From assembly GCA_947630715.1 (NCBI GenBank), contig CANRIP010000006.1, forward strand, positions 33,694-97,693: DNA of 64,000 nt. The letters are read 5' to 3'. How positions within the stretch are numbered: position 1 is the stretch's first letter; each line of letters opens with the position of its first letter. This stretch comes from an uncultured Acetatifactor sp. Lineage in GTDB: Bacteria; Bacillota; Clostridia; Lachnospirales; Lachnospiraceae. Position numbers and translations under genes: made by a program. The notes under the pieces are model-generated. The model searched no databases, was not told where the DNA came from, and was given only the letters and a program-made list of their open reading frames with translations. Positions 23,459-63,913 of the stretch are shown one piece after another.

Positions 23459-24700
23459 GTGGAGGTTGATGATATGCTAAGTCAATTTACTGTTAAAAAC
23501 TACAAAAGTATCCGTGATGAGATTACATTTGACATGCAGGCAGCAGCTATTTCGGAGCATAACGATAAAATTATTCAAGATGGGAATGGGGAATTGTTTC
23601 TGCCCGTAGCGGTTATCTATGGGCCGAACGGTGGCGGAAAGTCTAATGTACTGGAAGCAATTTATACATTGGCATCTAAAATTTTGCGTCCTCTTTGCGC
23701 AACCTGCGATAAAAGCGACTGCGCATACAAGGCCAGAAAAATTCCTGTGGAACCATTTGCTTTTACGGAAGAAAATAGAAACATGCCTACAAAGTTTGAA
23801 ATTTTCTTTCGGACGCAAGTAGCAGAGTATCGTTATATTCTTCATATTCAGAGAGAAACCGTGATTTATGAAAGCCTTGATAGAGTGAAAATGGAAACGG
23901 GAAGGCGCTCTGCATTGTTTGTCCGTGAAAAAGACAAAATAGATTTGAAAGGCACATTTGTCAAATTTAAGATTAGTGAAGACTTGTCGGAAACTTTGCC
24001 CTTATTGTCATATCTTGGGATTACTTATAAAAAGAACGAAATAGTGAATGACGTGCTGAGTTGGTTTGAAGAATCCATAGACTTTTTAAATTATGGAAAT
24101 CCTTATCAGGAAATGAAAACAGCAATAGCAAAATCTGATAAAATCAAAGAATTAGTGTTGAAAATGATCCGGGAAATGGACTTGGATATTGAAGATTTTC
24201 GTGTGGAAGAAAAGGACGAGGATACGGTAGAGGTGTATACAAAACATATTGTGAATGGAGAGAGTACAGAACTTACGTTATCCGAGGAGTCCAGCGGAAC
24301 AAAAAAGCTATTTGGACTTTTGCCGTATATTGTGCATAGCCTGATCTGCGGAACGACGTTGGTCATTGACGAACTGGACGCAAAAATTCATCCCTTATTA
24401 TTGAAACACATGATTGAACTGTATACGGACATGAATGTAAATAAGGCAAAGGGGCAGTTGATTTTTACCTCCCATGATTTATCAACCATGAACAATGAGG
24501 TTTATCGAAGGGACGAAATTTGGTTTGTGGCAAAGGGAAGGGATCAAAACACCAAGTTATATTCATTGGTAGAGTTTAAGGATGACAATGGTGTGTCAGT
24601 CCGCAAGGATGCAAAATATGATAAACAGTATCTTGAGGGGAAATATGGCGCGGATCCGTATCTGCAAAGGATTATAGATTGGGGGACAGTCAATGCCTAA
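23459..24700 (+). CDS. AAA family ATPase (AbiLi-like partner of RloB)
   Basis: MLSQFTVKNYKSIRDEITFDMQA; Walker A YGPNGGGKSNVLEA; LVIDELDAKIHPLLLKHMIELY; AT-richer than neighbours. Confidence 0.88.
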   Translation: MEVDDMLSQFTVKNYKSIRDEITFDMQAAAISEHNDKIIQDGNGELFLPVAVIYGPNGGGKSNVLEAIYTLASKILRPLCATCDKSDCAYKARKIPVEPFAFTEENRNMPTKFEIFFRTQVAEYRYILHIQRETVIYESLDRVKMETGRRSALFVREKDKIDLKGTFVKFKISEDLSETLPLLSYLGITYKKNEIVNDVLSWFEESIDFLNYGNPYQEMKTAIAKSDKIKELVLKMIREMDLDIEDFRVEEKDEDTVEVYTKHIVNGESTELTLSEESSGTKKLFGLLPYIVHSLICGTTLVIDELDAKIHPLLLKHMIELYTDMNVNKAKGQLIFTSHDLSTMNNEVYRRDEIWFVAKGRDQNTKLYSLVEFKDDNGVSVRKDAKYDKQYLEGKYGADPYLQRIIDWGTVNA

Positions 24701-25409
24701 AAAAGCCGGTATGGAAAAGTGGAAGAAAGAGCGTCGGAAACACTATTTGGAACTCAAAGAATATCGCTACTACATCTTTTGTGAGGGGGAGCAAACAGAG
24801 CCGCAGTATTTTGCAGGATTTAAACGGCTGATTGAGGACAACCCTATCTACAAAGATATGGTATTGATTGAGATTGAGCCTTGTGCAGCAGAAACCATGC
24901 GCGTCATAGGAATGGCGGAAAGATATGTCAAAGAGAATAACATACAAAAGGGTCAAATCTGGTGTGTGTATGATAAGGACAGTTTTCCGGCAGAGCATTT
25001 CAATGGTGTTGTGGAACGAGCGGACTTGTTAAATCAGGATAACTCAGAATTACAATATCATGCAGCGTGGAGTAATGAGTGCATTGAGTTCTGGTTTATA
25101 CTGCATTTTGCTTATTATACCGCTAACAACCACCGGACAGCGTACATAAATTTTTTAAACCATAAGTTTCAGGAACTGGGATTAGGGAAGTATCAGAAGA
25201 ATATGCCGAATCTTTTTGAAATATTAATGGAAAAAGGTAATCCAAAGCTGGCAATACGATACGCCAAGCGGGCTATCAAAGATGGACGAGGTAAAACGCC
25301 AACGGAAATTGCGCCGGGGACAAAGGTGTATGAGCTGGTGGAGGAACTGGCGAAGTATTTGCCGGAAGAAATAAGAAACTGTTTTTGCCAGGAACGTGCG
25401 CAATTTTGA
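24693..25409 (+). CDS. RloB-like protein (AbiLii-like)
   Basis: YYIFCEGEQTEPQYFAGF, WCVYDKDSFP, SNECIEFWFILHF; 8-bp overlap with upstream AAA ATPase. Confidence 0.88.
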   Translation: MPKKAGMEKWKKERRKHYLELKEYRYYIFCEGEQTEPQYFAGFKRLIEDNPIYKDMVLIEIEPCAAETMRVIGMAERYVKENNIQKGQIWCVYDKDSFPAEHFNGVVERADLLNQDNSELQYHAAWSNECIEFWFILHFAYYTANNHRTAYINFLNHKFQELGLGKYQKNMPNLFEILMEKGNPKLAIRYAKRAIKDGRGKTPTEIAPGTKVYELVEELAKYLPEEIRNCFCQERAQF

Positions 25410-25433
25410 CAAAATTGCCAAAATCCGCACGTT
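25393..25433. repeat. Nested inverted repeat at the 3' end of the RloB gene
   Basis: AACGTGCG (25393-25400) / CGCACGTT (25426-25433) enclosing CAATTTT-gac-AAAATTG; no T tract follows. Confidence 0.85.
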
Positions 25434-25538
25434 AGACTTGCAAGCAACTTACCCAATATGATAAAATATGGCTAACCAAGTAGGCGTGATACTTGTACTG
25501 AGCGGCTTATTACAGTTGTATGGTAAGGAGGCAGGAAT

Positions 25539-25898
25539 ATGGCTAAATTAACATCAAAGCAACTGCTATGGATCAGAAACATTGTGATGTTTGCCGGGGT
25601 TCTTATGGCTTTTGTTGTATGGCTGCATGTTCCTTCTACTTTAAAAAATAACCGCCTATACCATATTGGAAATGGAGAGTATACTTTTAAGGAACCTTTT
25701 CTTATTTTCATACTCATGCCTTTACTTGGGCTTATTCCAAGAAAACCGATCGATGAAATCCATACGGATGATATGACAGAGAGAAATAAGATAAAAGAAG
25801 AAATAGAAATAACGTCAAAAAAGACACAAATTATCTGCACTGTAATCGGAACGCTATTAGCATGCGTTATCTTTTTGTTGATGGTGCTGATTGGATAG
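25539..25898 (+). CDS. Small membrane protein, unknown function
   Basis: 119 aa with three hydrophobic segments and RBS AAGGAGG upstream. Confidence 0.6.
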   Translation: MAKLTSKQLLWIRNIVMFAGVLMAFVVWLHVPSTLKNNRLYHIGNGEYTFKEPFLIFILMPLLGLIPRKPIDEIHTDDMTERNKIKEEIEITSKKTQIICTVIGTLLACVIFLLMVLIG

Positions 25899-25905
25899 TT
25901 TCAGA

Positions 25906-25962
25906 AAAAGGAAAGAGAGAGTACTGTAAACCCCGCAGCGGCGCTGTACTCTCTTTTACCTC
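25906..25962 (+). terminator. Likely intrinsic terminator
   Basis: GAGAGTAC...GTACTCTC arms flanked by A-rich and TTTT sequence, after the small membrane protein gene. Confidence 0.55.
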
Positions 25963-26115
25963 TCTTTTCCATAAGCATCGCAAGCGCCCAATGGGTTCTT
26001 TCCACTTTCTGCCACCCCATCAAGCCATTTTCCCGTTCCCGATTGTTTTTGGCCGCATCCATGTATGTCTTTTAGTTCCTTCCCAATGATCTGACAGAGT
26101 GGGTTTCTGACGTCC

Positions 26116-57063: not shown

Positions 57064-58524
57064 ATGAAAAAAGGTCAGGTATTTGAAACAAAGGTCACCA
57101 GGGTGGACTTCCCCAACAAGGGGATCGCCTTGACGGAAGAAGGCCCCGTGACCGTAAAAAACAGCCTGCCCGGACAGTTCATAAAGCTTAGTGTCAATAA
57201 GGTGAGAAATGGGAAGGCGGAGGGCCGTCTGTTGGAGGTGATGGAACAATCACCTTTGGAAACAGCCAAACCGTGTTCCCACTTTGGTGTGTGCGGAGGC
57301 TGTAATTATTTGTCGCTGCCTTATGAGACGCAGTTGCAAATCAAGGAGGAACAGGTGAAAAGGCTCCTGGAGGATGCGCTGAAAAACCAGGCGGTTCCTT
57401 TTCGCTGGGAGGGGATCAAGGGCAGCCCCATATCCTGCGGATACCGCAACAAAATGGAATTCACCTTTGGCGACGAAAGGAAGGATGGGCCGCTTGCTCT
57501 GGGTATGCACAAAAGAGACAGTTTTTACGATGTGGTAACTGTTTGCGACTGCCGGATCGTGGATGAGGATTACAGGCAAATCCTTGAGGCGGTCCGGTCT
57601 TATTTTGCGGAAAAAAAGGTAAGCTTTTTTCACAGGACATCACACCTTGGTTATCTGCGACATCTTCTGGTCAGAAAGGCGTACCGCACGGGAGAGATTC
57701 TGGCTGCGCTGGTCACTACGTCCCAGCCCATGGCAGGGGAAGGCCAGGGGGAGGGAGAGCAGGGCCGTGAAGGGGAGGAAACGATTCTGCGGGGATTTCT
57801 GGACCGGCTTCTTTCTCTGGAGAAAGAGGGGAAACTCTCCGGCCGTTTTGCGGGTATTTTGCACATTGTGAATGATTCCCCGGCGGATACCATAAAAAGC
57901 GACCGCACGGAGGTACTGTACGGACAGGATTATTTTTATGAGGAAATTCTGGGGCTGAGATTCCGGATTTCCACCTTTTCCTTTTTCCAGACCAATTCCT
58001 CCGGAGCGGAGACGCTGTATCAAACGGCCAGGGAATATGTGGGGGATTTAAGGGACGCATCGGGCAAGCGGGATAAGGTGGTGTACGATCTGTACAGCGG
58101 GACGGGGACGATTGCGCAGCTTTTGTCCCCCGTGGCTCAAAAGGTGATCGGCGTGGAGATTGTGGAGGAGGCTGTGGAGGCTGCCCGCAGGAACGCGGCG
58201 GAAAACGGGATCGAAAACTGCGAATTCTTGGCGGGGGACGTGCTGAAAATCTTGGATGAAATTCCGGAAAAGCCGGATCTGATCGTGCTGGATCCGCCGC
58301 GGGACGGCATCCATCCCAAGGCCCTGCCGAAAATAGCCGCCCACGCCGGCGCGGAGAAGATTTTGTACATATCCTGTAAGCCCACCAGCCTGGCCCGGGA
58401 TCTCAAGCTGTTGCAGGAGTACGGCTATTGCGCGGTGAGAGGCTGCTGCGTCGATATGTTTCCCAACACGGGGAATGTGGAGACGGTGTGTTTGCTGGCC
58501 AAAACGGATGTCGGACAAGCATGA
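57064..58524 (+). CDS. rlmD: 23S rRNA (uracil-5-)-methyltransferase, RumA/RlmD family
   Basis: TRAM-like N-terminus, CSHFGVCGGCNYLSLPYE, VVYDLYSGTGTIAQLL, LDPPRDGIHPKAL, YISCKPTSLARDL. Confidence 0.95.
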   Translation: MKKGQVFETKVTRVDFPNKGIALTEEGPVTVKNSLPGQFIKLSVNKVRNGKAEGRLLEVMEQSPLETAKPCSHFGVCGGCNYLSLPYETQLQIKEEQVKRLLEDALKNQAVPFRWEGIKGSPISCGYRNKMEFTFGDERKDGPLALGMHKRDSFYDVVTVCDCRIVDEDYRQILEAVRSYFAEKKVSFFHRTSHLGYLRHLLVRKAYRTGEILAALVTTSQPMAGEGQGEGEQGREGEETILRGFLDRLLSLEKEGKLSGRFAGILHIVNDSPADTIKSDRTEVLYGQDYFYEEILGLRFRISTFSFFQTNSSGAETLYQTAREYVGDLRDASGKRDKVVYDLYSGTGTIAQLLSPVAQKVIGVEIVEEAVEAARRNAAENGIENCEFLAGDVLKILDEIPEKPDLIVLDPPRDGIHPKALPKIAAHAGAEKILYISCKPTSLARDLKLLQEYGYCAVRGCCVDMFPNTGNVETVCLLAKTDVGQA

Positions 58525-58783
58525 GGTGGAAATGAAACTGGATGAGATGGATTTGACCGCTGCCGAGAAGAAAGCCAGCTATGAGGAGATTAAGGCGTAT
58601 GTGCTGGAGCATAGCGGACTAAAGGTAAGTAATCTTTATATTGCGCAGGTTAAAAGGAAATGTGGGATCATTGAGAGGGAGAATTATAATAAGCCGAAGT
58701 CTGAGGATGCAAGGCAGCCTAAATGCCCGGAAGATAAAGAGAGGGCGATTCGGGAGGCACTTAAGTATTTTAAGATGATTTAA
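58508..58783 (+). CDS. Out-of-frame rlmD C-terminal-extension-like ORF
   Basis: MSDKHEVEMKLDEMDLTAAEKKASYEEIKAYVLEHSGLKVSNLYIAQVKRKCGIIERENYNKPK; resembles the C-terminal extension found on RlmD homologues. Confidence 0.65.
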   Translation: MSDKHEVEMKLDEMDLTAAEKKASYEEIKAYVLEHSGLKVSNLYIAQVKRKCGIIERENYNKPKSEDARQPKCPEDKERAIREALKYFKMI

Positions 58784-59001
58784 TAAGCTGGGAATAGGTA
58801 AAAGGATTTAACTTAAGATGGTCAGTTGACAAAAAAGCATAGGCAATATATGCAACTCGATTTTCTATACGGTAGAAATAGTCTGACATAACAGTAATTA
58901 ACATTGGTAAATATGAACTGTGGCTATTAAGAAATCAACCTATTAGTTAAAAGAAATACGATATTAAATACAGTTATAATACACGAAATGGGAGATAGAC
59001 G

Positions 59002-61440
59002 ATGGAAGTTAATGAATTTATTAGAATAATAGATGATAAAAAAGTAATAGGATGCGGGAAATACAATGTTGGAAGAGATATACCCTGCGGGGAGTATTAT
59101 TTATGGGGAAGAAATATATGGTATTCTTATAAGAGAAAACGAGAAAGAGAAAGTCATGAATATGTTAGAGAAGCATATGACATCTTTGAGAGTGGTGATA
59201 TACTTACAATTGAAAAAGGTAAAATGACGAGAATAGATAATATAAACTACTCCAAAGAGAACATAGATATTATCATGCCTAATCATATTTATAGAGTTGG
59301 TCTTGAGATTCCAGAGGGTTATTATGTGTATAGGTTTGAAAAGAAATTCTTTAATGATACTATTTCATATTGCCGAAGTGATGATGAATGTGCTTTTGAT
59401 ATGCATAAAAATTATGCAGATTCAAGATATCATAGTGAACATGGTAAGAGTGGTTGTGTAATGTTAGATGTTGTTAATTTTAGGCATGTAAATATTAAAA
59501 ATGGAATAGCTGCTTATGTAGGAGATGAAAAATTTGATGAACAAAAAATTGTAAATGAATGTTCCGTTGAAGAAAATAAATTTTTTAGTAATGGTATTAG
59601 AATATTTAATTGTAAGATTATGGAGATAAGATTATATAAAAAGTATAATAACGGAGGCATGTTTTGCGGAAAAATTCCAGTAGATGTATTAAATTATTAC
59701 ATTTACTCAGTAGAAGACCAGTTAATGTGGAAAGCAGATATCAATCCTTTATCTTTCAAAAGACCAAATAGTATTTCGATATGTTTCTCTGATAGCAGTA
59801 ATAATCAATGTATAGTAGAAATTACAAATTTTTCTTATCATTACGATAGAGAAAAATTAATGAGTTGGTATACTATTTCTACTTTTTTGCCAGATGCTTT
59901 TATAGGATGTGAATTAACTCTTGAACTGTTAGCTTACAATGGAGAGCATGTTTCAGAAAGGTTTGAAGAATGTGTTAGTGTTGGTAAATATAAAGCAGAC
60001 GATACGATATATAAAAGCTATCAAGTATATAGTGACGATTATAAAATGTTACAAAAATTGTTGCAAAATTTTGATGGATTAGATATTCATCAGGAATTAA
60101 CATATTTTGAAAAGGCACCTGATTTATTAAATGAGGTTAATGAGTGTTTAAGACAGATTACCAATAGTAAAATACTTTTTGATCAAGAAAAAGGCGATCC
60201 AAATAAAAAAATTATTTTTAAGATTCCAGCAACATATGATAAGAAATTTTATTGTGCAGCAAAATTAGCCGACGAAGCCTATAAGATTGAAGTAGATGAT
60301 AATGAATTAGCATACTCGGTTATATTCACGGGAGATCAATTGGCACAAATTGAATTGATGAGTTATATGTTTTTCGACATTAATAATAAAGAGGAAGTAC
60401 AAAATAGAGAATATCTAAATAAAAAAAGTTACATATTTTATACTAAAAATACTATCCAGCAAAGGATTAATGCTTTAAATGAGAAATATGGATATTCTTC
60501 TATTGTTACCAATTCTGTATTGGTTCGAATTATCAAAATTATGAACAAAAAGTTACAACAAAGAATTGACAGCGTTTATTCAGAAATAAGTAAAGAAGGC
60601 CGTGTTCAAACAAAATGGGGTAATGAGTATCGCTTATTTTTGTTAGTCAGCAGATATGTAGAAGATGCATGTTATCAATATCATTGTGATTGGCTAGGGA
60701 AGCAAAGTTATGATATTTATTCTGACAAGTACAAGGTGGCAATAGAGTATCAAGGGCAACAACATTATGAGGCAATAGATTTATTTGGCGGTGAAGAAAG
60801 TTTAAAATATAATTTGGAGAGAGATAAGCGTAAGAGAGAATTATCAGTATTACATGGGATTAGACTACTGGAATGGAAATATACGGTACCTGTTGAAGAA
60901 AATAATGTAATAAATTTTTTGATTACTAATGGTATTGAAATTCAATCTCCTAGGTGCGTAGATATAAAATCCAATTATGTGTCCAGTAATATAGAAATGG
61001 CACCTATAAAGGGTATTAAGGGACAAAATAAGTCAACACAGCAGAGGAAAAAAGCGGTTAAACAGATAAACTCGTATGTTGTTCAATATATGTTAAGCGG
61101 AGAATTGAAAAATAAATATACCACAATTGGTGAGGCTGCTAAAGCAGTGGGTATTAGTTCAACTAGTATATCTAAAGTATTAAGAAAAGAACGTAATACA
61201 GCCGGAGGATTCATTTGGGAAAAATATGATGTATCAGAGGATATTCCACAAATTGTTGAAATTGATTTTGATATTAGTTTGATAAATAATGGAATATCCA
61301 AAAAAATTGCTGAAATGGATAGTGATGGAAATATTATTGAAGAATATCCATCTATTTTAGAAGCTTCGAGAAAAACCAACAAAGATGTTGATGCCATACG
61401 GAAATGTCTTAGGGATAAAAAGGGTTGGAGATATTTATAA
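59002..61440 (+). CDS. Predicted multidomain nuclease: N-terminal IPxGEY-type repeats, Vsr-like/PD-(D/E)XK-like core, C-terminal NUMOD1-like motifs
   Basis: VGRDIPCGEYYLWG and YRVGLEIPEGYYVYRF; DIYSDKYKVAIEYQGQQHYEAIDLFGGEESLKYNLERDKRKRELSVLHGIRLLEWKY; TIGEAAKAVGISSTSISKVLRKERNTAGGFIWEKY. Confidence 0.7.
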   Translation: MEVNEFIRIIDDKKVIGCGKYNVGRDIPCGEYYLWGRNIWYSYKRKRERESHEYVREAYDIFESGDILTIEKGKMTRIDNINYSKENIDIIMPNHIYRVGLEIPEGYYVYRFEKKFFNDTISYCRSDDECAFDMHKNYADSRYHSEHGKSGCVMLDVVNFRHVNIKNGIAAYVGDEKFDEQKIVNECSVEENKFFSNGIRIFNCKIMEIRLYKKYNNGGMFCGKIPVDVLNYYIYSVEDQLMWKADINPLSFKRPNSISICFSDSSNNQCIVEITNFSYHYDREKLMSWYTISTFLPDAFIGCELTLELLAYNGEHVSERFEECVSVGKYKADDTIYKSYQVYSDDYKMLQKLLQNFDGLDIHQELTYFEKAPDLLNEVNECLRQITNSKILFDQEKGDPNKKIIFKIPATYDKKFYCAAKLADEAYKIEVDDNELAYSVIFTGDQLAQIELMSYMFFDINNKEEVQNREYLNKKSYIFYTKNTIQQRINALNEKYGYSSIVTNSVLVRIIKIMNKKLQQRIDSVYSEISKEGRVQTKWGNEYRLFLLVSRYVEDACYQYHCDWLGKQSYDIYSDKYKVAIEYQGQQHYEAIDLFGGEESLKYNLERDKRKRELSVLHGIRLLEWKYTVPVEENNVINFLITNGIEIQSPRCVDIKSNYVSSNIEMAPIKGIKGQNKSTQQRKKAVKQINSYVVQYMLSGELKNKYTTIGEAAKAVGISSTSISKVLRKERNTAGGFIWEKYDVSEDIPQIVEIDFDISLINNGISKKIAEMDSDGNIIEEYPSILEASRKTNKDVDAIRKCLRDKKGWRYL

Positions 61441-61510
61441 TTATTAATTTGCTGAGAATCTCAAAATGCAACAAGAGTATTCGGCAAAGTAATATAGAAA
61501 GAGAGTAGAA

Positions 61511-62308
61511 ATGTTAATTGATGCTTCAGATGCAAATACCATTCCGGTTGATATAGAAAATAAAATAATAAGATATTTTTCTTTAATGCCTGAAAACGTA
61601 ATTGCTAATATAAAAAATCAGAAACTTGAATACGACCATGATGTGTTATGTGCAATTGAAGAATATGTAGCTCCAAACACTGCATATGATTTTTATCAGG
61701 AGCTTATTGCATTATTTGAACAGCATGAAATGGTTTGCTACCATTCTACAAAAATACTTGATAAAGGCATAATTTTTGAGAATGGACTTAAAACAAATGA
61801 TTGGGATACCTATAGCCGAAATATTATTAGTATTTTCAAAAAACTGAATGTGAAAGCAATCGATATAGCCGAATCTATGAAAGTTATAAAAAAACAATAT
61901 GATTGGAAATACCCTATCGTTGATAGAGAACCACAACTGTGTTTTTATTCAGATATAGGACTGTTAAGAAATGATATGTATGCAGGTTATGAGCAATTTT
62001 GTGAGAATATAGGCGGAGAATTGGCGAAAGATGCATTAAAGAAAGATTTTCCACGAATATATGGATATTTGAGAGAAAATGGTGAGGCAATTTTAGTTAA
62101 GTTTAAAATTCCATTTATCGATATAGAAAATTACGACAAGGATTCTATTGTATATCATTTTGTTGCTTACTTTGCAGGGAAGTATTTTTGGAATTATAAT
62201 TATGAAGTTCATTTTGACGGAAATACCAATAAAGATATTGAACCAAATAATATTTTAGAAATTATTCCCTATTTGATAGATAGGTATTATTTTCATAGTG
62301 GGGATTAA
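61511..62308 (+). CDS. Hypothetical protein, 265 aa
   Basis: Intact ORF in AT-rich island; MVCYHSTKILDKGIIFENGLK and GEAILVKFKIPF stretches; family not recognised. Confidence 0.6.
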   Translation: MLIDASDANTIPVDIENKIIRYFSLMPENVIANIKNQKLEYDHDVLCAIEEYVAPNTAYDFYQELIALFEQHEMVCYHSTKILDKGIIFENGLKTNDWDTYSRNIISIFKKLNVKAIDIAESMKVIKKQYDWKYPIVDREPQLCFYSDIGLLRNDMYAGYEQFCENIGGELAKDALKKDFPRIYGYLRENGEAILVKFKIPFIDIENYDKDSIVYHFVAYFAGKYFWNYNYEVHFDGNTNKDIEPNNILEIIPYLIDRYYFHSGD

Positions 62309-62356
62309 ATATAAAAAGGGTGTGAACTTATCCGAGTAAAAAAGGAGTAATCATAA

Positions 62357-63412
62357 ATGGGAAATAGAAAAGGACCAAAAACCTATAATCATTATGTTCC
62401 ACAGTTTTATTTAAAAAACTTTTCGGGTAATAATAGCATTGGTGTTTATAATTTTGAGAGAAAAAAATTTGTTGATGAAGCTGCCATTCGTACACAAGGA
62501 GGTAGAGATTTTTTATACGGAAAAGATAATAAACTAGAAGACTGGTTCATAAATTTAGAAGGTGAATGGGCTAGGATAATTAATGATATTTTTGTATATG
62601 AAAAAATTCCAAAGGATAGTATAGATTATATTTATTTATTAATGTTTGTATATTTGAGTGATGTGAGGGTAGCTGAAAAAGCGGATGATTTCAAAAGAAA
62701 CAAATTAGAAGAGTCCAAAAGTATAGCCAAGGTACTTGCTGCACAGAATAAAATATCTTTATCAGAAAGCGATATTGAAAGTATGGACATTAGATTTGAC
62801 AGACCTAACCTTTCATATATACAGGGTATGAATAATTTAATCCCCATTATTTCTGAGCTTTGTCCGATGATTATTATAAATGAAAGTAAGCTGGGATTTA
62901 TTACAGCCGATGTTCCTCTTGCAAAATATAACCAATGGTTTATAGAAAGGAATTATAAACATCCATATGGTTTTGGGCATATGGGATTTCAATGTTTTAT
63001 TCCCTTATCTCCTAAGATATGTTTTTGCCTATATGATGATAATGTTTATAAAAATGAGTATAGTAATAAGGGCAGAATTAGAATATATAATGAGTCTGTA
63101 GTAGAACAATTTAACAAACTATTTATCCAAAATTCATATAAGGAAGTTTATTATCGCATAGACACAAGGGCATGGCTTGAGAAAAATATAGGAATAAAAT
63201 CTGAAAATAAATTAGAAGAGTGGATTATGGGGAATCCGCAGCAAGGATATTTGCAAAAAGTATCAAGTCGTAGTGTGTATGACATTATAAAATTGCCTAT
63301 GTTTAAGACGAAACAATTTTATAAAACAGTTCCTTTGCCTTATGATGAAGCCGGACCAATACGCAGGGAAGCATTTGAAAAAATGAGTAAATGGAATAAA
63401 ACACATTTATGA
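62357..63412 (+). CDS. DUF4238 domain-containing protein
   Basis: YNHYVPQFYLKNFSGNNSIGVYNFERKKF...RDFLYGKDNKLEDWFINLEGEWARII. Confidence 0.88.
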   Translation: MGNRKGPKTYNHYVPQFYLKNFSGNNSIGVYNFERKKFVDEAAIRTQGGRDFLYGKDNKLEDWFINLEGEWARIINDIFVYEKIPKDSIDYIYLLMFVYLSDVRVAEKADDFKRNKLEESKSIAKVLAAQNKISLSESDIESMDIRFDRPNLSYIQGMNNLIPIISELCPMIIINESKLGFITADVPLAKYNQWFIERNYKHPYGFGHMGFQCFIPLSPKICFCLYDDNVYKNEYSNKGRIRIYNESVVEQFNKLFIQNSYKEVYYRIDTRAWLEKNIGIKSENKLEEWIMGNPQQGYLQKVSSRSVYDIIKLPMFKTKQFYKTVPLPYDEAGPIRREAFEKMSKWNKTHL

Positions 63413-63442
63413 GGCAACAAAATATTGATGCGTAGTACTATT

Positions 63443-63913
63443 TTATAACGCTTTCTCATTTTTCAAGCACTTTTCCCGTTCCGGATCAGAGTGATTTTTC
63501 TTAAGTAAATTAAGAAAATCAAACAATTCTTTTCTTGTCATATTATCCAATACAAAGAAATCCGCAATTAACTGGTCGATCATCGGCAACTCGGTGTAGT
63601 CAAATTTCTTAATGATCTTTAAGGTGCGGCCGGAGAAGTAAGCCTTCTTTTCCATGTTGATCATCAACCGTTCTTTATCGGAGGGAAGCTTTGGCAGTGT
63701 TTCCATGTCCTCGTAGGGATTGTCCTTGCAGATGGAATTGATAGGAATGTCGAGGATATTGGAAATACGTAGCGCTGTGTCAAAGCGGATGGCGGCGTCA
63801 CGCTGGATAATAGAGTAAAGCGTGGTCGGTGCAATTCCAGTCTTTCTTGCCAATTCTTTTACGGTCATGCCCTTCTCGTCCAACAGATTTTTCAGATTTT
63901 TTCCATATCCCAT
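63443..63913 (-). CDS. XRE-family HTH transcriptional regulator
   Basis: MGYGKNLKNLLDEKGMTVKELARKTGIAPTTLYSIIQRDAAIRFDTALRISNILDIPINSI; start taken at Met 63913. Confidence 0.88.
   Translation of the reverse strand: MGYGKNLKNLLDEKGMTVKELARKTGIAPTTLYSIIQRDAAIRFDTALRISNILDIPINSICKDNPYEDMETLPKLPSDKERLMINMEKKAYFSGRTLKIIKKFDYTELPMIDQLIADFFVLDNMTRKELFDFLNLLKKNHSDPEREKCLKNEKAL

Follow-up and report, generated by a model that had tools for sequence, protein, structure and literature searches.

Homing endonucleases have been divided into six families, one of which is the EDxHD family (review PMC3943268). In a survey of the introns of Bastillevirinae, proteins of phrog_559 were found to carry a VSR endonuclease domain, their genes lying within terminase introns (PMC11878797), and in 2025 a large, previously unrecognised outgroup of EDxHD/Vsr homing nucleases with CapR-like repeats was described (PMC12350094). 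Vsr-type nucleases are also contained in the helicases of ARMADA and Druantia (PMC12458937), and NixI and Shedu are among the anti-phage nucleases described (PMC12904381). So far, nucleases of the Vsr/EDxHD type are known as selfish homing enzymes or as domains of multi-gene defence helicases.

The window analysed here, a stretch of 64,000 nucleotides from an uncultured Acetatifactor sp., encodes an 812-aa protein in which a core of this type stands between an N-terminal module of IPxGEY-like repeats and two C-terminal NUMODs. The best explanation for this protein is a single-gene, restriction-like defence nuclease, guided by its NUMODs and made of homing-endonuclease parts, a reading to which a probability of about 0.5 can be given.

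The gene and its setting in the window

The open reading frame is intact, starts with ATG and contains the motifs quoted in the first-pass annotation, which had been made from the sequence alone; the composition given there (IPxGEY-like repeats, nuclease core and NUMOD-like segments) was confirmed by profile, Pfam and PHROG matches. All features are listed in Table 1. The gene is situated directly 3' of an rlmD/rumA-type gene, whose product we take to be RlmD from our own reading of the sequence, and its 102-aa tail. Its start lies 218 bases beyond the stop codon of this tail, and at 58.8 kb the GC content falls from ~0.53 to 0.30. A second local GC dip in the window lies at 24001-26000 (0.40 against ~0.56).

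No second gene is present in the cassette, in agreement with the stand-alone gene assumed earlier, and neither a recombinase nor a mobilisation gene was found in it. No group I or group II intron family of Rfam matched at the locus, no methyltransferase is encoded between 58784 and 64000, and a scan of the locus for promoters and terminators gave no more signals than shuffled sequences did. Further 3' lie the genes of a 265-aa protein with no assigned family, of a DUF4238 protein and, on the opposite strand, of an HTH regulator. The contig ends at 64000, and the island is seen up to that point.

Table 1. Features of the 812-aa nuclease locus and its flanks, in window coordinates
Feature	Position	Strand	Evidence or remark
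rlmD/rumA-type 23S rRNA methyltransferase gene	57064-58524	+	left flank of island
102-aa tail ORF, overlapping rlmD	58475-58783	+	left flank of island; same-genus DNA homology stops at 58782-58788
Exchangeable single-gene cassette, low GC (~30%)	58784-61493	+	left edge: end of same-genus homology; right edge: cross-genus homology from 61494
812-aa multidomain Vsr/EDxHD-type nuclease gene	59002-61440	+
N-terminal tandem IPxGEY module, residues ~13-175	59038-59526	+	mostly beta in model
Second beta-rich region, residues ~227-300	59680-59901	+	AlphaFold model
Pre-nuclease region, residues ~400-480	60199-60441	+	by-eye likeness to what precedes the nuclease in many family members; low-confidence model
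Vsr/EDxHD-like nuclease core, residues ~525-650	60574-60951	+	PHROG matches, fold, conserved residues
First NUMOD1 / I-HmuI-like NUMOD, residues ~690-745	61069-61236	+	Pfam, model
Second NUMOD1, residues ~766-812	61297-61437	+	Pfam, model
265-aa protein gene, first in downstream module, outside nuclease unit	61511-62308	+
DUF4238 protein gene, downstream module	62357-63412	+	Pfam E 5e-37
HTH regulator gene at contig end	63443-64000	-	also directly after the DISARM operon in same-genus L145

Nuclease core, NUMODs and N-terminal module

Over the nuclease region no match was obtained with Pfam or NCBIfam, while three PHROG families matched residues ~498-638: phrog_34504 (6e-20), phrog_559 annotated as 'HNH endonuclease' (2e-13) and phrog_9084 annotated as 'homing endonuclease' (2e-10). 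When the PDB was searched directly by sequence, neither the protein nor a 56-row nuclease profile found a match (E limits of 1 and 5), so that folds had to be compared. In the full-length AlphaFold model the core is confident (pLDDT ~96 over residues 540-650), and residues 501-650 modelled alone reached a pLDDT of 92. The top two PDB matches of the latter model in Foldseek were Vsr bound to DNA (1cw0, probability 0.98) and I-Bth0305I, the type member of the EDxHD family (3r3p, probability 0.84), with weak E-values of 0.03 and 0.13, respectively. Compared with viral models, the nuclease model gave E-values of 1e-8 to 1e-5, named homing endonucleases among these matching at 1e-7 to 1e-5.

In an alignment of ~100 homologues, W539, E542, D571, E582, G585, Q587, H588, G596, G597, D608 and K611 vary little or not at all; for E542, D571, E582, H588, D608 and K611 this holds across ~80-99 homologues including phage homing endonucleases. 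In an alignment of 81 rows, again with phage homing endonucleases among them, E542, D571, Q587-H588 and D608 are kept in 80-81. The phage homing rows keep the conserved residues except W539 (both rows) and E542 and Q584 (one row, with V at 542). The conserved residues form the E-D-xH-D pattern of EDxHD enzymes, a match judged from the alignment. The first-pass annotation had named absence of a nuclease fold and lack of conservation of the catalytic residues in homologues as the observations that would speak against it; both came out for its reading, that of a Vsr-like nuclease. The extent proposed there for the nuclease, 540-670, was corrected to ~525-650 for the conserved domain, and the position of the second NUMOD was corrected as well (Table 1). 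Domains, fold and conserved residues together suggest nuclease activity of the 812-aa protein.

In most of the family the nuclease forms the end of the protein (median tail 6 aa), and in the phylogenetic tree the bacterial nuclease clade is set apart from the phage homing rows with a support of 100/99. The tree is compatible with one fusion event at the origin of the NUMOD proteins as well as with several. The family is spread over many bacterial phyla under the name 'hypothetical protein', with no Pfam or NCBIfam model. Two tandem copies of the nuclease domain are present in Erysipelotrichaceae proteins of ~730-860 aa (L040, L046, L048, L049, L056, L062, L069, L070).

The two C-terminal NUMOD1-like segments reported earlier were found again as two stretches matching Pfam NUMOD1, with a whole-protein score above the gathering score (E 5.8e-11), and an I-HmuI_NUMOD-like match was obtained as well (E 3.6e-7). 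Their pLDDT is mostly above 90, and their fold matches I-HmuI (1u3e) with a probability of 1.0 and an rmsd of 1.8 over 53 columns. Other top fold matches of the full-length model were spurious matches of beta domains, the NUMOD/I-HmuI match alone being meaningful. Matches in PADLOC-DB 2023 were limited to 'HEase' models and one mad1 model, all over the NUMOD region, and no defence-effector model of this database matched over the nuclease. A match to an enterococcal phage (H2) covered mainly the NUMOD part and was set aside as evidence for the nuclease. A NUMOD tail after the nuclease occurs only in a few Clostridia, one Treponema and one viral contig. In the 812-aa protein the NUMODs may take part in target choice.

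A search with a profile of the N-terminal domain retrieved other tandem IPAGEY proteins (E down to 6e-12, both repeats spanned). The N-terminal beta region is fair in the AlphaFold model, and residues ~300-400 are without a confident model. Going by the model, the IPxGEY domain appears to be an uncharacterised beta domain; no Pfam family matched it in the window protein, a 'PsaF' match at the N-terminus being below the cut-off and ignored, and the motif string itself, looked for in the literature, gave no result. Elsewhere, the domain occurs mostly in predicted lipoproteins and in secreted or membrane-anchored proteins of related bacteria, and the sensing role proposed for it in the first-pass annotation found no support. 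Tandem copies are present in predicted lipoproteins and membrane proteins of Clostridia (L004, L005, L114-L117).

The order IPxGEY, nuclease, NUMODs was found in four other genomes, with homologues of 916 aa in Pseudobutyrivibrio ruminis, 724 aa in a genome deposited as Lactobacillus rogosae ATCC 27753 and 824 aa in an Oscillospiraceae MAG. A chance architecture is excluded, since full-length homologues of the same order exist in other genera. The fourth, an orthologue in Eubacterium plexicaudatum, is broken into four reading frames (L033 5998-8427), by either decay or sequencing error, and is flanked by a Mob_Pre gene on one side and a DUF1016/YhcG nuclease gene on the other. Nuclease and NUMODs are kept with unrelated N-termini in L034, L036 and L163, and the N-terminal regions of the wider family form 16 groups that are unlinked at E 1e-5. 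Among 196 related genomes surveyed, a match of any kind was present in five, and a full-length one in the window's own genome only. In viral contigs no relative was found with the protein alone, and one contig (L163) with nuclease and NUMODs was found with alignment A1. The architecture has no name in Pfam, NCBIfam, PHROGs or PADLOC, as already presumed when it was called unrecognised, and the combination of IPxGEY, Vsr-like nuclease and NUMOD1 was not found in the literature searched.

The rlmD-tail site and exchange with R-M systems

Some 20 same-genus genomes resemble the window at the DNA level across rlmD and the tail; the similarity ends at 58782-58788, the stop codon of the tail, beyond which the sequence varies between genomes. 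Cargo was named by PADLOC or Pfam. In ~10 of 17 readable same-genus genomes a known or candidate defence gene was located within the first few genes (our own raw count, not an enrichment), and ~7 of the 17 contained non-defence cargo. The rlmD-tail is followed by a class 2 DISARM in L145, a type III R-M in L150, a DUF2971 gene and then a type IIG R-M in L139, and a gene that we take by our own reading to be DUF4062-like and then a type I R-M in L141. Single proteins following it are a DUF262-type protein (L146), a mad3-like protein (L147), a C5 methyltransferase (L148), a PrimPol/type IV-like helicase protein (L149) and a CARF-ADA-like protein (L158). In L157 a serine recombinase follows directly. 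The HTH gene of the window shows 90.6% DNA identity to the one behind DISARM in L145, against only ~70% for the rlmD region.

The 3' end of rlmD with its C-terminal tail of ~60-100 aa (57064-58783; L120-L158) is a recurring integration hotspot in the genus, frequently occupied by defence systems. Many genomes have the tail fused to rlmD, whereas in the window it is a separate ORF, and a second copy of it lies at G000:C1:115-330. In C. difficile, rumA/rlmD is the landing site of a mobile element, whose insertion fuses rumA to a reading frame on the element side (PMC4320837), and rlmD with its tail recalls this rumA fusion by CTn5. The rlmD-tail site is a place in which further defence genes of this genus may be sought.

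On the right side, DNA from 61494 onwards is shared with two other genera. One genome (L248) shows 96.3% identity over 2190 bases, comprising the 265-aa gene, the DUF4238 gene and part of the HTH gene, and the other (L249) shows 94.8% identity over the first 929 bases; both matches start at one identical base, just 5' of the 265-aa gene. In L249 the shared DNA is preceded by the last part of a type I R-M operon. In L248 it is preceded by a serine-recombinase remnant at the junction, and this in turn by a methyltransferase of the EcoRI family and a type II restriction enzyme (REase_II). The 812-aa gene therefore takes, alone, the place held by R-M systems in these genomes. The module of the 265-aa and DUF4238 genes (61494-63683; L248, L249, L250) is found at 95-96% DNA identity between genera behind differing cargo, and may be a defence pair of its own. 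A two-gene system of nuclease and 265-aa neighbour was rejected, as the 265-aa gene occurs without the nuclease in other genera and no neighbour family recurs among the close homologues (L032-L037).

In the wider nuclease family the genes next to the nuclease are for the most part ordinary, a minority is defence-like and no partner is conserved; the claim of a defence role therefore rests on the hotspot and the cassette and does not extend to the whole family. The Treponema homologue (L036 216-4099) starts 17 bases after an AIPR gene, a gene of abortive-infection type, and the two form a possible two-gene defence operon.

Possible function and relation to known systems

The genomic position favours a defence role and the parts of the protein favour sequence-guided DNA cleavage. 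In the proposed mechanism, the Vsr/EDxHD core would hydrolyse DNA in a metal-dependent manner through E542, D571, E582 and H588 with D608/K611, and the two NUMODs would hold a long specific site and thereby direct the core to it. Together with the variable middle part, the IPxGEY module would be an exchangeable accessory at the N-terminus, by which the enzyme is assembled, restrained or licensed. Phage or plasmid DNA bearing the site, or triggering the licence, would be cut, and host DNA would be spared by absence of the site or by cleavage only upon activation; one of these would have to apply because a methyltransferase does not travel with the gene. The gene would move as a one-gene cassette into the slot 3' of rlmD, which is used by many defence systems.

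The first-pass annotation had left the choice between a homing and a defence endonuclease open. Defence is now favoured because R-M systems occupy the slot in relatives, no target site is common to the homologues and no intron was detected. Against it stand the indirect nature of the location evidence, the non-defence cargo that the rlmD-tail site also holds, the ordinary neighbours of the wider family, and self-protection, which is without an explanation when no methyltransferase is present. NUMODs are otherwise typical of selfish homing endonucleases, which likewise speaks against a defence nuclease. The main rival is a free-standing selfish homing endonuclease, which would cut the allele lacking the gene and be copied in by repair, the hotspot being incidental or its target. 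The homology of the core to phrog_559 and phrog_9084 agrees with this, as does a C-terminal half that is homing-endonuclease-like as a whole; one family member has as its neighbour a phage terminase gene showing a weak signal of a group I intron, another is annotated as group-I-intron-associated, and the broken E. plexicaudatum orthologue is what a homing life cycle predicts. However, no flanking gene family or insertion site is common to L032-L037, the bacterial clade is split from the phage homing rows, and 812 aa is far above the typical size of a homing endonuclease. Together with the missing intron match and the R-M systems in the slot, this leaves homing as a real but less likely explanation.

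The nuclease could also serve a mobile element itself, by exclusion of competitors or processing during integration, and not the host. Signs of such elements are the serine recombinase in L157 and the recombinase remnant at the exchange junction of L248; in addition, the E. plexicaudatum copy has Mob_Pre as a neighbour, and an integrase is encoded close to that of P. ruminis. The cassette itself carries no gene of this kind and the homologues have no conserved partner, and we consider this role improbable; its effect would overlap with that of defence. A repair or other housekeeping endonuclease, suggested by Vsr as the closest solved fold, is very improbable, since the gene is rare and patchy in related genomes, NUMODs are not part of Vsr, and neither a Pfam Vsr match nor a neighbouring C5 methyltransferase was found.

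Returning to the defence nuclease, it would be a tentative and doubtful step further to see here single-gene immune nucleases of a new class, whose NUMODs direct the cutting of invaders at a programmed site with neither methyltransferase nor RNA guide, and whose exchangeable N-terminal modules, IPxGEY and others, set when they fire. If true, homing-endonuclease parts would clearly have been turned to immunity, in one gene that interchanges with restriction systems, and it would have to be asked how such an enzyme spares its host without methylation.

Compared with known systems, the position used by defence systems in relatives is that of defence-island cargo, while the cognate methyltransferase of a type II R-M system is absent between 58784 and 64000. 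With the EDxHD enzymes (I-Bth0305I, 3r3p; phrog_559 and phrog_9084) the protein shares a Vsr-like core with conserved E...D...(Q)H...D and tethered modular DNA-binding parts, here of NUMOD type, its kinship being to the PHROG families by sequence and to I-Bth0305I by fold. It differs from EDxHD homing endonucleases in its length, the two NUMOD1 behind the core, the N-terminal IPxGEY module, its separate bacterial clade and its chromosomal defence hotspot, where Rfam showed no intron and the flanks of homologues revealed no conserved target site of its own. The phage group II intron proteins with CapR-like repeats and their relatives (PMC12350094) resemble it as a large, mostly unannotated group with a distant Vsr/EDxHD nuclease and auxiliary DNA-binding repeats, but theirs are CapR/DUF4379-like and precede the nuclease, whereas here NUMOD1 follows it and IPxGEY forms the N-terminus. 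ARMADA and Druantia (PMC12458937) use the same nuclease fold in defence proteins, there as YprA-helicase fusions in multi-gene systems, here in a single gene with no helicase. NixI (PMC12904381), also a lone nuclease, is a DNA-nicking effector that acts on phage DNA from the satellite element PLE, and is a precedent for mechanism only. Shedu (PMC12904381) belongs to another nuclease family and has no NUMOD, and outside the NUMOD part of the 812-aa protein no Pfam or PADLOC match, Shedu included, passed a cut-off; Shedu and the 812-aa protein both combine, in one gene, a conserved nuclease with a changing N-terminal part.
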